Shown here in pieces: positions 6,608 to 60,857 of a stretch of DNA of 64,000 nucleotides. The stretch covers positions 124,001 through 188,000 of the forward strand of contig NZ_RPEN01000156.1 of the NCBI RefSeq assembly GCF_003991405.1, written 5' to 3'. The notes under the pieces were generated by a model. The model did not search any database. It saw only the letters and a list, made by a program, of their open reading frames with translations, and was not told the DNA's origin. The first letter of the stretch is position 1, and the number at the start of each line of letters is the position of its first letter. The DNA comes from Pseudorhodobacter sp. E13 (GTDB lineage Bacteria; Pseudomonadota; Alphaproteobacteria; Rhodobacterales; Rhodobacteraceae). The position numbers and the translations under genes were made by a program.

Positions 6608-7756
6608 TCAGGCTGTTTTCTTCAACCGTTCCATTCCATAGACCAAAAGCCCGGCCAGCAAACCCCAGAAGGCAGCGCCGATGCCAAAGACCGAAACCGA
6701 AGACGCGGTGACCACCAGTGTCACCAGCCCCGCAAAGCGTTGATCGGCATGGGCAAAAGCCCCGGTCGCCGCCCCCATCAATGGCCCCAGCAGCGCCAGC
6801 GCCACAAGGGCTGCGACCAAAGCCGGGGGCAGGGCGGCGATAAACGGGATGATCAGCGGGCCGAACGCCCCCAGCAGCAGCCAGACCCCGGCATAGGCAA
6901 TCCCCACTTTCCAGCGCTGGGCGCGGTCGGGGTGAACCTCATCGGCAAGGCAGATCGCAGCGGTGATGGCCGCCATGCTGATCGTATGCGCCCCGGCAAA
7001 GGCCGAAAGCCCCGAGGCGGCACCCGTTGCCAGAAGGGCAGGGCGCACGGGCGGCGTGTATCCGGCAGCGCGCAACACCGCAAACCCCGGCAGGTTCTGC
7101 GACGCCATCGTCACCAGATAGAGCGGCACGCCAAGGCCAATCAGCACCGAGGCGCGGAACTCTGGCCAGATCCAGACCAAGCTGGGCAGGCGCAGTGACA
7201 GGGCGGGGGCGGCGGCTTCTCCGATCCCGAAGGCAAGGGCAAGCCCGGTGGCAAGGGCGGCGAGCACCGCCAGTGCGGGATTATACAGCCGCACCAGCGC
7301 GAACACCGCCACCATCGGCAGCACCAAAGCCGGCGCGGCCTGCGCAGAGGCCATCAAGGGCAGGCAAAAGGGCAGCAGCACGCCAGCCAGCATCCCCGCT
7401 GCAATCCCGTCCGGGATGCGCTGCACCAATCGCCCCAATGGCCCCCATGCCCCTGTCAGCATGATCATCCCCGCGGCCAGCAAAAACGCCCCGACCGCCT
7501 CGGCCATGTTGATCCCTTCGCTTGCCGCGATCAGCGCCAGCCCCGGCGTCGACCATGCCAGCACCACCGGCACACGGGTATAGGCGCTGAGAAAGCCGCT
7601 GGTCAGCCCTTTGGCAAGGCAGATCGCAAAGACCCAGGACGCCGCCTGCGCCGGGGTCGCACCCACCGCCGCCGCCGCCGAAAGCAGCAGCGCAATCGTG
7701 CTGCCATATCCGACAAGCGAGGCGACAAGTGCCGATGAAATCAGGGAAATCCGCAT
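6608..7756 (-). CDS. benE: BenE-family transporter (benzoate/H+ symporter type)
   Basis: Polytopic inner-membrane protein of 382 residues with about 12 hydrophobic segments. Early sequence LAKGLTSGFLSAYTRVPVV and AWSTPGLALIAAS, and the central AGAHTISMAAITAAICLADEVHPD, are typical of the BenE family of the nucleobase-ascorbate transporter superfamily. BenE proteins import benzoate, but no benzoate catabolic genes are present here, so the substrate is open. The gene starts 70 nt downstream of the last CcsR hairpin on the same strand. A hairpin (7760-7782) covers its likely ribosome-binding site, so read-through from the sRNA array or translational control are possible. Confidence 0.85.
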   Translation of the reverse strand: MRISLISSALVASLVGYGSTIALLLSAAAAVGATPAQAASWVFAICLAKGLTSGFLSAYTRVPVVLAWSTPGLALIAASEGINMAEAVGAFLLAAGMIMLTGAWGPLGRLVQRIPDGIAAGMLAGVLLPFCLPLMASAQAAPALVLPMVAVFALVRLYNPALAVLAALATGLALAFGIGEAAAPALSLRLPSLVWIWPEFRASVLIGLGVPLYLVTMASQNLPGFAVLRAAGYTPPVRPALLATGAASGLSAFAGAHTISMAAITAAICLADEVHPDRAQRWKVGIAYAGVWLLLGAFGPLIIPFIAALPPALVAALVALALLGPLMGAATGAFAHADQRFAGLVTLVVTASSVSVFGIGAAFWGLLAGLLVYGMERLKKTA

Positions 7757-7825
7757 GGGTCAGCCTTTTGCTTTGTGGCTGACTATCCTGTGTGTGGTGC
7801 TGCGGGGCAAGCCCGAAATGGAAAG

Positions 7826-7899
7826 CGGCGACACTCAGGGAGGAGGAGAGAGTGCCGCCGTTCCATGTCACTTGATCCAGGGAGGAGGAGAGGACCAAG
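7826..7899 (-). ncRNA. ccsR4: CcsR-like sRNA unit 4 (two hairpins, anti-SD loops)
   Basis: Two hairpins 10 nt apart. The outer one pairs 7826-7830/7856-7860 and 7832-7836/7850-7854; the inner pairs 7871-7878 with 7892-7899 with one mismatch. Both loops read CUCCUCCCU on the minus strand, complementary to the purine-rich Shine-Dalgarno sequence. The two-hairpin design with this loop defines the CcsR/cuckoo RNA family of Rhodobacteraceae. It is the last unit of the array, 37 nt after unit 3, and I see no T-rich terminator directly after it. Confidence 0.85.
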
Positions 7900-7936
7900 C
7901 AATCTGTGCTGAAGGCTTGCGGCCTTCGAATTTTGT

Positions 7937-8011
7937 GCAGCGACCCCCGGGAGGAGGATAGGGGCCGCTGCGCTGTCACGTCCGACCCTCGGGAGGAGGT
8001 GAGGGCGGGCG
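7937..8011 (-). ncRNA. ccsR3: CcsR-like sRNA unit 3 (two hairpins, anti-SD loops)
   Basis: Hairpins pair 7979-7990 with 8001-8011 (one bulged A) and 7937-7942 with 7966-7971 plus 7944-7947 with 7961-7964. They are 7 nt apart, and each loop carries the minus-strand CCUCCUCCC motif. The second hairpin is identical over 35 bp to the second hairpin of unit 2, which points to duplication of units within the array. Confidence 0.87.
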
Positions 8012-8054
8012 TCTGGTTGGGCACGATTACGCAAACCGCATCCCGAAACTTTAT

Positions 8055-8129
8055 GCAGCGACCCCCGGGAGGAGGATAGGGGCCGCTGCGGGTTCCCGTC
8101 CGGCTCAGGGAGGAGGAGGAGCCGTGCGG
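8055..8129 (-). ncRNA. ccsR2: CcsR-like sRNA unit 2 (two hairpins, anti-SD loops)
   Basis: The first hairpin pairs 8101-8106 with 8119-8124, extended by 8096-8098 with 8127-8129. The second pairs 8055-8060 with 8084-8089 and 8062-8065 with 8079-8082. The hairpins are 6 nt apart, and both loops carry CCUCCUCCC-type sequence on the minus strand. The unit is separated by 43 nt from unit 3 and 32 nt from unit 1, so the two-hairpin grouping is clear from spacing. Confidence 0.87.
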
Positions 8130-8161
8130 TAAGTCTGGAAACCAAGGTTTCCGAAGAAAGG

Positions 8162-8230
8162 ACGGCGACACGAGGGAGGGAGGAGTTGTGTCGCCGTTTT
8201 CGCATCAGGCCCCGGGAGGAGGATAGGGCC
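8162..8230 (-). ncRNA. ccsR1: CcsR-like sRNA unit 1 (two hairpins, anti-SD loops)
   Basis: First unit after the DUF1127 gene; its upstream edge is 15 nt from that stop codon. A short hairpin pairs 8208-8212 with 8226-8230. A perfect 10-bp stem pairs 8162-8171 with 8188-8197, with a loop reading CUCCUCCCUCCC on the minus strand. In R. sphaeroides the homologous RNAs are processed from one transcript with the DUF1127 mRNA, and the same layout is seen here. Confidence 0.85.
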
Positions 8231-8245
8231 GTTGCTATTCAGATG

Positions 8246-8461
8246 TTACTTGCCGTAGGCCGCTTCAAGGGCGATACGGGTGATCATGGAGCGGGAAATG
8301 CCCAGATCGTTCAATTCGCGGGTCGACAGGGCGCGCAGTTCCGAAACAGTCTGGTTGTAAACCCGACGACGGTGCAGGGCCTCTTTTGCCGATTTCACCA
8401 GTGCAGCAGCGCGGTCCATCAGACCCAGCGACGCAGCGGAGGACGTGTTCATATAAGCCAT
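8246..8461 (-). CDS. ccaF1: DUF1127 protein, CcaF1-like partner of the CcsR array
   Basis: Small basic protein of 71 residues. The C-terminal half, RALSTRELNDLGISRSMITRIA, is the DUF1127 core, an arginine-rich RNA-binding motif in characterised members. The start at 8461 is preceded by GAGG at a suitable distance; the frame continues upstream but lacks a better site and would swallow the promoter. In R. sphaeroides the gene in this position (CcaF1) is co-transcribed with CcsR1-4 and affects processing and stability of these and other sRNAs. Inferred role here: RNA-binding stress protein acting on the four downstream RNAs. Confidence 0.88.
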   Translation of the reverse strand: MAYMNTSSAASLGLMDRAAALVKSAKEALHRRRVYNQTVSELRALSTRELNDLGISRSMITRIALEAAYGK

Positions 8462-8514: not shown

Positions 8515-8544
8515 TAACATGGGGCAATTGCTGCGCTTGCACAA
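8515..8544 (-). promoter_or_regulatory. RpoH-type (sigma-32-like) promoter of ccaF1-ccsR
   Basis: On the minus strand TTGTGC (8544-8539) is followed after 14 nt by CCCCATGTTA (8524-8515). The latter matches the sigma-32 -10 consensus CCCCATNT exactly; the -35 keeps only the TTG core. Transcription would start about 45 nt before the DUF1127 start codon. Heat-shock-type sigma control (RpoHI/RpoHII) is known for this locus in R. sphaeroides. Confidence 0.65.
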
Positions 8545-8710
8545 TGGATGATGCTGCAATGCAGCTATGCAGTTGCAGCATGGCAAAACTGGTAAATTAA
8601 CCCAAGGGAAACAGGCACTTCGCTGAATTTTTTAGCGTTTGGTCAACGCGGGCTTGCCCTTTGCCTGCAAAGCGACAACCTATGGTTAAGGAATAAGCGG
8701 AGAGATGATC

Positions 8711-31134: not shown

Positions 31135-32033
31135 GCGCCCCCGCCCGCCATCCCCGCCCCGACCGCAGCGCCCCGCGCCGCGATCCCGCCCCCAGCCGCA
31201 TTGCCTATCGCATGCAACGGCTGTGGCTGACGCCGGCCATCCGCACCGCGCTACGGGTCGGGCTTCCGGCCTTTGTGCTGGCCTTTGGTGTGGGCATTTA
31301 CCTTGCCGATACCGAACGGCGGGAGTCGCTGGGCTCTGTCTATACCGATCTGCGCGAGAAAATTAAGAACCGTCCGGAATTCATTGTAAAGCTGCTGTCG
31401 GTCGAAGGCGCATCGCCGGATCTGTCGGAGGCTGTGCGCACCACGCTGGCGCTGCCTTTGCCGCAAAGCTCGCTTGATCTTGATCTGGAGGCCGCCCGCG
31501 CCCGCATTGCCACGCTGCGCGCGGTGGCCGATGTGGATGTGCGGGTGCAATCGGGTGGCATCTTGCAGGTCACGATCACCGAGCGCGAACCTGCGTTTGT
31601 CTGGCGCGATGCGGCGGGGCTGTGGCTGGTGGATGAAACCGGCACCCGCGTGGCCGAAATCCATGACCGCAATGACCGCGCCGATCTGCCGCTGATCGTG
31701 GGGCAGGGCGCCGATGCGGCGATTGCCGAGGCGCAGCAAATCCTGCTGTCTGCCGGGCCTTTGCTGCCGCGCCTGCGCGGCCTTGTCCGCATGGGCGAAC
31801 GGCGCTGGGATATCGTGCTGGACCGCGATCAACGCATCCTGCTGCCCGTCGATCAACCCATTGCCGCGCTGGACCGTCTGATTGCATTGGATCAGGCGCA
31901 AGAGCTTTTGGCCCGCGATATCGTGGCCGTCGACCTTCGTTTGCAAAACCGCCCCTCGTTGCGGCTTGCCCCTTATGCTTTGGCTGAAATGCGCCGCGCA
32001 CGCGGCATTATCCCTGCGGAGAACGACCTATGA
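31122..32033 (+). CDS. ftsQ: Cell division protein FtsQ
   Basis: Bitopic divisome scaffold linking early and late division proteins. The 303-residue product has a basic, proline-rich cytoplasmic part of about 45 residues, one membrane helix (about 45-65), then a POTRA domain ([21 protein letters not shown]) and the beta domain with [10 protein letters not shown] and [12 protein letters not shown]. The ATG lies inside the ddl end with GAGG seven bases before it. It overlaps ftsA by 4 bases. Confidence 0.92.
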
Positions 32034-59297: not shown

Positions 59298-60857
59298 ATG
59301 GATGAGATTGGCGAGATGTGTGAGCCGGCGCGCGCACGATCTGGGCGGGCTGGGGGGCGGGCGAGCCGGGTGGCTTTGCGGGCGGCCCCTTTGGCGGATG
59401 ATCTGCGGCCTGTGCGGCCGGGTTTGCCCGGCGGGCAATACAAGCCGCTGACCGAAGCCGGGGTGGCGCAGATTCATGAAAGCGCCTTGCAGGCGTTGGA
59501 GCAGATTGGTCTGAGCCAGGCTCCACCCTCGGGGGTTAAGCTGTTGACGGAAGCCGGGGCCATTCAGGGGGATGACGGGCGCATTCGGTTCCCGCGGGCT
59601 TTGGTGGAGGATATGCTGGCGGTGGCTGCGCGCAACATCACCTTGCACGCGCGCGACCCAAAGCATGACCTGCATTTGTCGGGGTCGAAGGTGCATTTCG
59701 GCACGGCGGGGGCGGCGGTGCATATTGTCGATCCGTTCACGCTGGACTATCGCGAGAGCACGGCGCAGGATTTGTATGATGCGGCGCGGCTGGTGGATAA
59801 TCTTGATAACATTCACTTTTATCAGCGCACGATGGTTTGCCGGGATATCCCGGACAACCTCGATATGGATTTGAACACGCTTTATGGGTCTGTGTCGGGG
59901 ACGCGGAAACATGTGGGCACCTCGTTCAGCGATCCGTCCCATGTCGCGCCTTGTTTCGATCTGCTTTACACGATTGCGGGGGGTGAGGAGAAATGGCTGG
60001 AGCGGCCCTTTGTGTCCAATTCCAACTGTTTTGTGGTGCCGCCGATGAAGTTCGCCGAGGAAAGCTGCATCGTGATGGAAGATTGTATCCGTCGCGGGAT
60101 GCCGATGCTGTTGCTGAGCGCGGGGCAGGCGGGGGCGACCTCTCCGGCGCCGATTGCGCTGACGATTGTGCAGGCGGTGGCCGAATGTCTGGCGGGTGTG
60201 GTTTATGCCAATGCGATCAAGCCCGGTGCGCCTTGTGTCTTTGGCACCTGGCCCTTCGTGTCGGATTTGCGGACGGGGGCAATGTCGGGCGGGTCGGCGG
60301 AGCAGGCGCTGTTGACGGCGGGTTGCGCGCAGATGCATCGGTTTTATGACCTGCCCGGCGGGGCGGCGAGCGGGATTTCCGACAGCAAGTTGCCGGATAT
60401 GCAGGCCGGATGGGAGCAGGGGATCACCAATTCGCTTGCTGGGCTTGCCGGGTTGAACATGTGTTATGAGGCAGTGGGGATGCATGCGTCTTTGCTGGGC
60501 TTTTGTCTGGAAAGCCTTGTGCTGGGTGATGATCTGTTGGGCCAGGCGATGCGGTTGGTGCGCGGGATTGATGTGACGTCCGACAGCACCAGTATCGACG
60601 CGATGAAAGAGGTGTGCTTGGGCGGGCCGGGGCATTACCTAGGCTCGGACCAGACGCTGAAGCTGATGCAGACCGAGTATATTTATCCGGTGGTGGGCAA
60701 CCGGATGTCACCGAAGGAATGGAATGAGGCGGGCAAGCCTTTGCTTTTGGACAAGGCTTTGGCGCGCAAGAATGCCATCCTGGCGAAAGCCGGGCGGTTG
60801 ATCGACCCGGAGTTGGATGCCATGATCCGCAGCAAATACAAGATCTATTTCCAGTGA
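59298..60857 (+). CDS. MttB-family methyltransferase without pyrrolysine
   Basis: A 519-residue member of the trimethylamine methyltransferase superfamily. No amber codon lies in frame, so it is a non-pyrrolysine form, as in glycine betaine (MtgB) and proline betaine methyltransferases. Segments LTEAGVAQIHESALQALEQIG and HVGTSFSDPSHVAPCFDLLY and GGAASGISDSKLPDMQAGWEQG are typical. It would take a methyl from a quaternary amine to a corrinoid protein. No corrinoid or RamA-type activase gene is in this operon; the corrinoid protein at 44.2 kb is the only candidate in view. GAGGG precedes the ATG at 59298. Confidence 0.9.
   Translation: MDEIGEMCEPARARSGRAGGRASRVALRAAPLADDLRPVRPGLPGGQYKPLTEAGVAQIHESALQALEQIGLSQAPPSGVKLLTEAGAIQGDDGRIRFPRALVEDMLAVAARNITLHARDPKHDLHLSGSKVHFGTAGAAVHIVDPFTLDYRESTAQDLYDAARLVDNLDNIHFYQRTMVCRDIPDNLDMDLNTLYGSVSGTRKHVGTSFSDPSHVAPCFDLLYTIAGGEEKWLERPFVSNSNCFVVPPMKFAEESCIVMEDCIRRGMPMLLLSAGQAGATSPAPIALTIVQAVAECLAGVVYANAIKPGAPCVFGTWPFVSDLRTGAMSGGSAEQALLTAGCAQMHRFYDLPGGAASGISDSKLPDMQAGWEQGITNSLAGLAGLNMCYEAVGMHASLLGFCLESLVLGDDLLGQAMRLVRGIDVTSDSTSIDAMKEVCLGGPGHYLGSDQTLKLMQTEYIYPVVGNRMSPKEWNEAGKPLLLDKALARKNAILAKAGRLIDPELDAMIRSKYKIYFQ

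Follow-up and report, generated by a model that had tools for sequence, protein, structure and literature searches.

A small DUF1127 gene of Pseudorhodobacter sp. E13 is followed by a run of hairpins that carry the same motif in their loops, and we asked what this array is, what controls its expression and how its RNA would act. The window, that is, the whole stretch of DNA that was analyzed, comprises 64,000 nt (GCF_003991405.1, contig NZ_RPEN01000156.1, positions 124,001-188,000 of the forward strand), and coordinates below refer to it unless another locus is named.

The hairpin array and the CcsR family

The array and the gene ahead of it consist of the following features, in which the hairpins were obtained by constrained folding and the units by a search with the Rfam CcsR1 model (RF02791).

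8246-8461, minus strand: ccaF1-like DUF1127 gene, 71 aa (PF06568, E 4.4e-13, 49.2 bits; relatives)
8157-8242, minus strand: CcsR unit 1, hairpins 8235-8202 and 8201-8156 (48.1 bits, E 1.3e-10)
8050-8134, minus strand: CcsR unit 2, hairpins 8129-8096 and 8089-8055 (50.9 bits, E 2.1e-11)
7932-8013, minus strand: CcsR unit 3, hairpins 8012-7978 and 7971-7937 (44.3 bits, E 1.8e-9)
7820-7904, minus strand: CcsR unit 4, hairpins 7906-7864 and 7865-7819 (34.7 bits, E 1.2e-6)

The initial annotation had assigned the gene to DUF1127, and the Pfam match bears this out; the gene lies on the same strand as the hairpins and directly 5' of them. The motif CTCCTCCC occurs in eight copies on the minus strand (5' ends at 8221, 8185, 8115, 8074, 7998, 7956, 7887 and 7845), and all eight are inside hairpin loops. 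These eight hairpins, with CUCCUCCC loops, span 8235-7819. When the 431-nt array (8245-7815) was shuffled 500 times with its dinucleotides preserved, chance copies of the motif averaged 0.15 and never exceeded two, and the folding energy of the array was far below that of 200 shuffles (z = -8.0). In the 64 kb window CTCCTCCC was found nine times against 1.9 expected, eight of the nine being in the array, and the predicted mean unpaired probability was at least 0.997 in every loop of the array. The copies are spaced by 36, 70, 41, 76, 42, 69 and 42 nt, an alternation of 36-42 and 69-76 nt that agrees with the grouping into four pairs proposed earlier. The array starts 10 nt past the DUF1127 stop codon if the full stem is counted and about 14 nt past it from the inner stem, close to the 15 nt first given.

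All four units aligned to the CcsR1 model over its full length (positions 1-83), which supports the earlier proposal that four paired units correspond to four CcsR RNAs. The covariance search that had been suggested as a check thus gave significant E-values at every unit, but none of the units reached the gathering cut-off: at that threshold the Rfam scan of the array returned no match, the CcsR1 scores of 34.7 to 50.9 bits standing against 65.3. In this the units differ from CcsR1-4 of Rhodobacter sphaeroides, the gathering cut-off being a curator's threshold and not an anatomical feature. Among 20 loci scanned, CcsR1 exceeded the cut-off in two (L016 and L018), in both cases with the unit directly after the DUF1127 stop. 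The alpha-r14 model (NfeR1, RF02344) also matched the array three times below its cut-off (E 7e-6 to 4e-5), but its E-values were weaker than those of CcsR1 at each unit, although its bit score was higher at unit 4 (40.3 vs 34.7). At one CcsR-type array locus, L145, alpha-r14 reached its cut-off twice (1717-1840 and 2237-2360), which indicates that the two models overlap. A genome search with a single-hairpin model (R1), in which 150 of 1,141 first-look candidates were scored, gave five places at E <=1, all of them in the array. A separate Rfam match in the window, to PYLIS_3 (pyrrolysine insertion sequence, mttB; 60375-60474, 45 bits, E 4.9e-6), is, we guess, an ordinary mttB-type methyltransferase gene.

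The arrangement resembles CcsR1-4/CcaF1 of R. sphaeroides: a DUF1127 gene of 71 aa precedes four units, each made of two hairpins with CCUCCUCCC loops, the CcsR1 model matches over its full length, and the promoter is, by resemblance, of heat-shock type. In the available text of PMC10253847, R. sphaeroides CcaF1 is likewise given as 71 aa, and that paper uses the term CIN1 locus for a DUF1127 gene with CcsR-like RNAs. The full-length model matches, the size of the DUF1127 protein and the conserved gene order support the orthology that had been proposed from the sequence, and the identification of the locus as a CcsR/CcaF1 (CIN1, cuckoo) locus in a new species is well supported.

We compared the locus with relatives. 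A protein search placed the DUF1127 protein closest to those of Pseudorhodobacter (best 90% identity), then other Rhodobacterales, then Rhizobiales, and 29 loci (L009-L037) were ranked by similarity to it. In 27 of 28 relatives (L009-L036), 4 to 13 such hairpins were counted 3' of the DUF1127 gene (first count, <= -7 kcal/mol); in L021 the contig ends at that gene. Some arrays contain near-identical tandem units, for example with a 117-nt period in L009, suggesting rapid change in copy number. Outside the Rhodobacterales, at least one such hairpin was found within 350 nt in 20 of 51 DUF1127 loci. Among L009-L037, several of which are cut by contig ends, a divergent Mrp match is a neighbour in 25 and a UvrD match in 26.

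One hairpin was aligned in 24 chosen sequences: the second hairpin of the window, with its ends trimmed, the second hairpin of 21 of the 27 relatives (L009-L036), and one further hairpin each from the window and L009. In this alignment both sides vary in 10 of the 11 pairs, pairing holds in 93.4% of the cells, and the covariation score is 0.523, compared with 0.191 for shuffled alignments (none of 500 reached the observed score) and at most 0.144 for slid partners. Six relatives (L013, L026, L028, L029, L032 and L033) had been excluded by hand because their second hairpin was differently shaped or near-identical to that of L027; therefore the result is favoured towards a clean one.

Scans of the locus found no sigma-70 promoter and, on the minus strand, no terminator; the last stem of unit 4, whose tail is weakly T-rich, might act as one. 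Downstream of the array, on the same strand, lies a BenE-type transporter gene (6608-7756). A BenE match stands beside the array in the window and in 7 of the 29 relatives, several of these being cut by contig ends. The terminator scan of the interval between array and BenE-type gene gave no hit, and read-through from the array into this gene is possible.

Two boxes at the array promoter

In an alignment of upstream sequences, a block ahead of the DUF1127 gene was better conserved than its surroundings. Three elements were recognized in it.

8554-8564, minus strand: PhaR-type box 1, CTGCATTGCAG, an exact fit to the R. sphaeroides pattern CTGCNNNGCAG
8529-8544, minus strand: box 2, TTGTGCAAGCGCAGCA, overlapping the presumed -35
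8515-8524, minus strand: -10-like element, CCCCATGTTA, seen in alignments of upstream regions

The CCCCATGTTA element is presumably of the heat-shock sigma type, judged by its resemblance to the consensus. Array promoters share a CCCCATGTTA-like -10 and a TTG -35, their likeness to RpoHI/RpoHII promoters being one of resemblance alone. For R. sphaeroides ccaF1-CcsR, the available text of PMC10253847 reports an RpoHI/RpoHII promoter. The R. sphaeroides PhaR site, CTGCNNNGCAG, is taken from the introduction of PMC12542648, which quotes it from earlier work. The perfect box 1 of the window lies 20 bp from box 2; a copy with one mismatch, CTGCATAGCTG, overlaps it 8 bp upstream, 28 bp from box 2, and occupies the position typical of most other genera.

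We then counted the boxes at 97 DUF1127 loci whose downstream sequence could be read, an array being defined as at least three hairpins in 450 nt. Box 2 (TTGTGCANNNGCAGCA, up to one mismatch) was present at 71 of 74 array loci and at 2 of 23 loci lacking an array, and exact box 1 (CTGCNNNGCAG) at 45 of 74 and 5 of 23, respectively. Box 2 without an array was seen at L174, which has one hairpin pair, and at L164, which has none. L164 (genome G048) carries both boxes and the DUF1127 gene with no hairpins within 700 nt; we read its array as lost or moved. The box starts are 28-29 bp apart in 56 of the 71 array promoters with box 2, 20-21 bp in eight and 42-43 bp in two, and in five of the 71 box 1 was not found even with up to two mismatches. 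Box 2 was present at 26 of 28 places among L009-L037 and the window, and in the other 69 genomes it was seen at 45 of 46 loci with an array and at 2 of the 23 lacking one. These 69 genomes comprise 29 loci and 40 further places, one per genome, spread evenly over the host's family and chosen roughly by the order of protein matches. L023 (short upstream sequence) was dropped from the 97-locus counts and from the 58-region counts given below, and L021 (contig end) from the 97-locus counts; L123, whose upstream sequence is identical to that of L019, was counted twice. Because the loci share ancestry, these counts are not independent trials.

Box 1 was also compared with controls. Exact CTGCNNNGCAG occurred in 25 of the 58 upstream regions, compared with 24 of 2,900 shuffles and 43 of 2,477 random windows; with one mismatch allowed, the figures were 37 of 58, 485 of 2,900 and 358 of 2,477. 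A matrix built from nine Sinorhizobium meliloti sites separated array promoters from controls less well (scores >=8 in 30 of 58 upstream regions, 285 of 2,900 shuffles and 109 of 2,477 random windows). A second matrix was made from 32 sites in the phasin promoters of 16 genomes (20 PhaR loci were taken), with no array promoters; as its training sites had been found with CTGCNNNGCAG, it amounts to a refined version of this pattern. At scores >=8 this phasin matrix picked out 67 of the 74 array promoters, as against 7 of the 23 DUF1127 promoters that lack an array and 69 of 3,471 random windows. Box 1 of the window scored 16.1, a value equalled or exceeded in 43 of the 3,471 random windows, whereas box 2, which has GC-N4-GC spacing, scored only 2.5. 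The top phasin-matrix site of the 64 kb lies at 31721-31741, with a score (16.16) slightly above that of the array box. Very strong phasin-type sites (25.8 to 28.7) were seen upstream of DUF1127 at three loci that have at most two hairpins (L129, L137 and L157), and PhaR control may extend to DUF1127 genes more generally.

The host genome encodes PhaR (PF07879, E 3.5e-27) next to phaC, phaZ and a phasin-like gene; the latter scored 22 bits against a Pfam cut-off of 24.9. Its promoter contains three boxes with scores of 21 to 27 by the matrix, which was trained on other genomes. No strong site was found upstream of a second phasin-family gene (C151), where the best phasin-matrix score was 6.6. 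The exact pattern CTGCATNGCAGCA occurs at only four places in the 3.88 Mb genome, and its reversed form at none: in the promoter of the phasin-like gene, between phaC and phaZ, in the array promoter, and between a Sel1-type gene (assigned by reading) and a PAAR gene (PF05488). The fourth place is probably a chance occurrence, since its phasin-matrix score is 0.9. When one mismatch was allowed, box 2 was found at 20 places in the genome against 2 for the reversed pattern, and many of these are, by reading, inside or beside genes with no obvious link to polyhydroxybutyrate (PHB). One of the 20 stands before a 78-aa DUF2934 gene (PF11154; L092 1205-1522, minus strand; C159 near 472598) with an alanine/lysine-rich tail; this gene has a two-box promoter with box starts about 29 bp apart, and is likely to be a further PhaR target, judged by these boxes.

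We considered whether the operon is an ordinary CcsR operon controlled by a heat-shock sigma factor alone, the boxes being an extended promoter element or the binding site of a different regulator. The RpoHI/RpoHII promoter reported in R. sphaeroides (PMC10253847) fits this reading, as does box 2, whose phasin-matrix score is weak and whose conservation may be due in part to the sigma factor, since it overlaps the -35. Box 1, however, is located 5' of the -35, and its sequence agrees with the published PhaR site and with the phasin and phaC/phaZ sites of the same genome. Moreover, the two-box spacing repeats that of phasin promoters, which have the same box sequence and in 15 of 16 cases carry two boxes at a distance of 26-30 bp, compared with 28-29 bp at the arrays; the array promoter differs in that its box 2 is a diverged form and that the phasin promoter drives a granule protein. 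Control by the sigma factor alone is thus an unlikely, though not a negligible, explanation. From the boxes we infer instead that PhaR represses the operon and thereby ties its anti-Shine-Dalgarno RNAs to stored PHB.

If PhaR acts at these boxes, its occurrence should be compared with theirs. PhaR was present in 25 of 26 array-bearing genomes searched, the exception being G003, and was not found in 5 of 149 genomes of the host's family. In one of the five, again G003 (one contig, 100% complete), the array promoter (L121) is without either box. G033 has neither array nor box, and G090 and G136 have no DUF1127 match. In G098, an assembly that is 84% complete, an array and both boxes are present. 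Co-evolution of PhaR and the boxes therefore has one case for it (G003) and one unclear case against it (G098).

Outside the Rhodobacterales, phasin-matrix scores >=8 were found at 4 of 20 array loci, all of them from Phyllobacterium, and at 7 of 31 array-less loci. The four Phyllobacterium loci (L057, L058, L060 and L066) have upstream scores of 16.7 to 18.8, unlike the other 16 array loci from outside the Rhodobacterales, and three of them show, by reading, a pair of PhaR-like sites separated by about 30 bp. The predicted link between array and PhaR is strong in the host's family and present in one genus of Rhizobiales; it is not general.

Strand and predicted action of the array RNA

We examined on which strand the hairpins are formed. 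Across 226 hairpins from the window and its relatives, with stems seeded by Watson-Crick pairs, 73 G.U and 8 A.C oppositions were counted on the array strand, and the folding energy was lower on that strand in 155 hairpins and higher in 69. The test leans to the array strand because the hairpins had been chosen by folding there.

Three other readings of the repeats were weighed. If the opposite strand were transcribed, its GGGAGGAGG loops could form a CsrB-like sponge for CsrA. CsrA prefers GGA, and GGA is present in the plus-strand loops. No CsrA gene (PF02599) was found in the genome, however, the 73 to 8 ratio of oppositions favours the minus strand even though the hairpins were picked by folding on it, and R. 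sphaeroides CcsR is described as deriving from the ccaF1 strand (PMC10253847, PMC8625941, as far as their available text goes). We rejected the sponge, which we regard as having next to no chance of being correct. It is just as improbable that the repeats code for protein: a 140-aa open frame with LLLPG-like repeats does run from 8205 to 7783, but the copy spacings are even across the three frames (71, 66 and 65), the frame has no Pfam match at E 0.01, and the stems covary. Finally, titration of 16S rRNA 3' ends by the loops, an option raised in the initial annotation, was dismissed as scarcely conceivable, for GGATCACCTCCTTT at the 3' end of the 16S rRNA in this genome has the same sense as the array loops, so that the two cannot pair through the motif, and nothing was found in its favour.

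Since they share the sense of the 16S 3' end, the loops mimic the anti-Shine-Dalgarno sequence and should pair with the Shine-Dalgarno sequences of mRNAs. In the genome, GGGAGGAG lies 3-13 nt ahead of an ATG at 14 places, compared with 1 for the control, and six or seven of these resemble real gene starts by reading rather than by family search. The genes were read as including two transporter substrate-binding proteins (L188 and L191) and a transport permease (L184). We drew no conclusion on targets from these places because a strong Shine-Dalgarno sequence is expected there anyway.

The R. sphaeroides RNAs provide a parallel. In the available text of PMC10253847 and PMC8625941, CcsR RNAs are reported to be co-transcribed with ccaF1 and processed by RNase E and CcaF1; PMC8307010, as far as its available text goes, reports flhR mRNA as one of their targets, an effect on the glutathione pool and on pyruvate dehydrogenase, and an interaction with Hfq.

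A proposed role of stored polyhydroxybutyrate in the release of the operon

Taken together, these data make it quite probable that the window contains the orthologous ccaF1-CcsR1-4 operon, with a heat-shock-type promoter and with PhaR on two boxes holding it off until PHB is present. A single transcript from this promoter would comprise the DUF1127 message and the four units of two hairpins each. If processing is as in R. sphaeroides, the DUF1127 protein and RNase E would cleave it, and the CUCCUCCC loops exposed on the resulting CcsR RNAs would base-pair with the Shine-Dalgarno regions of mRNAs. PhaR, a PHB-binding repressor, is predicted to occupy the two boxes around the -35 and keep the operon off; PHB granules would draw PhaR away and so release it, and full output would require the stress sigma factor and stored PHB together.

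A related arrangement is known in S. meliloti. There, according to the available text of PMC12542648, the sites bound by PhaR include the promoter of the anti-Shine-Dalgarno RNA MmgR, and in the phaP1 and phaP2 promoters a box stands on either side of the -35; MmgR limits PHB accumulation (PMC12542648, PMC7143759, PMC9049629, all in their available text). The array is like MmgR in combining an anti-Shine-Dalgarno RNA with a PhaR-type promoter site, which in MmgR is bound by PhaR and linked to PHB. Unlike the array, MmgR is described as a single 77-nt RNA with three stems that belongs to another family (alpha-r8; PMC12559287) and is also activated by NtrC, and an accompanying DUF1127 gene is not mentioned in the portions of the literature examined. 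In those portions PhaR control is likewise not mentioned for R. sphaeroides CcsR1-4. A link between CcsR/CcaF1 and PhaR was not found in the parts of the literature searched, and the original CcsR, CcaF1 and cuckoo papers might mention one; PMC9230146, in its available text, mentions PhaR and DUF1127 in unrelated contexts. What is new here is the predicted PhaR operator, the CcsR-type locus itself being already known.

For the host's family as a whole, we think it probable, a little less firmly than for the window, that PhaR directly represses ccaF1-CcsR through two phasin-like operators and that release of the array needs both the stress sigma factor and PHB. Because S. meliloti PhaR represses MmgR and arrays in Phyllobacterium carry PhaR-like sites, the theme of a storage-polymer sensor controlling anti-Shine-Dalgarno RNAs may recur in the Alphaproteobacteria. 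If PhaR does control CcsR, the level of a stored carbon polymer would decide whether a large dose of anti-Shine-Dalgarno RNA is delivered under stress. This would give a reason why the CcsR stress RNAs act on carbon flow, and CcsR would join MmgR as a further anti-Shine-Dalgarno RNA under the PHB sensor.
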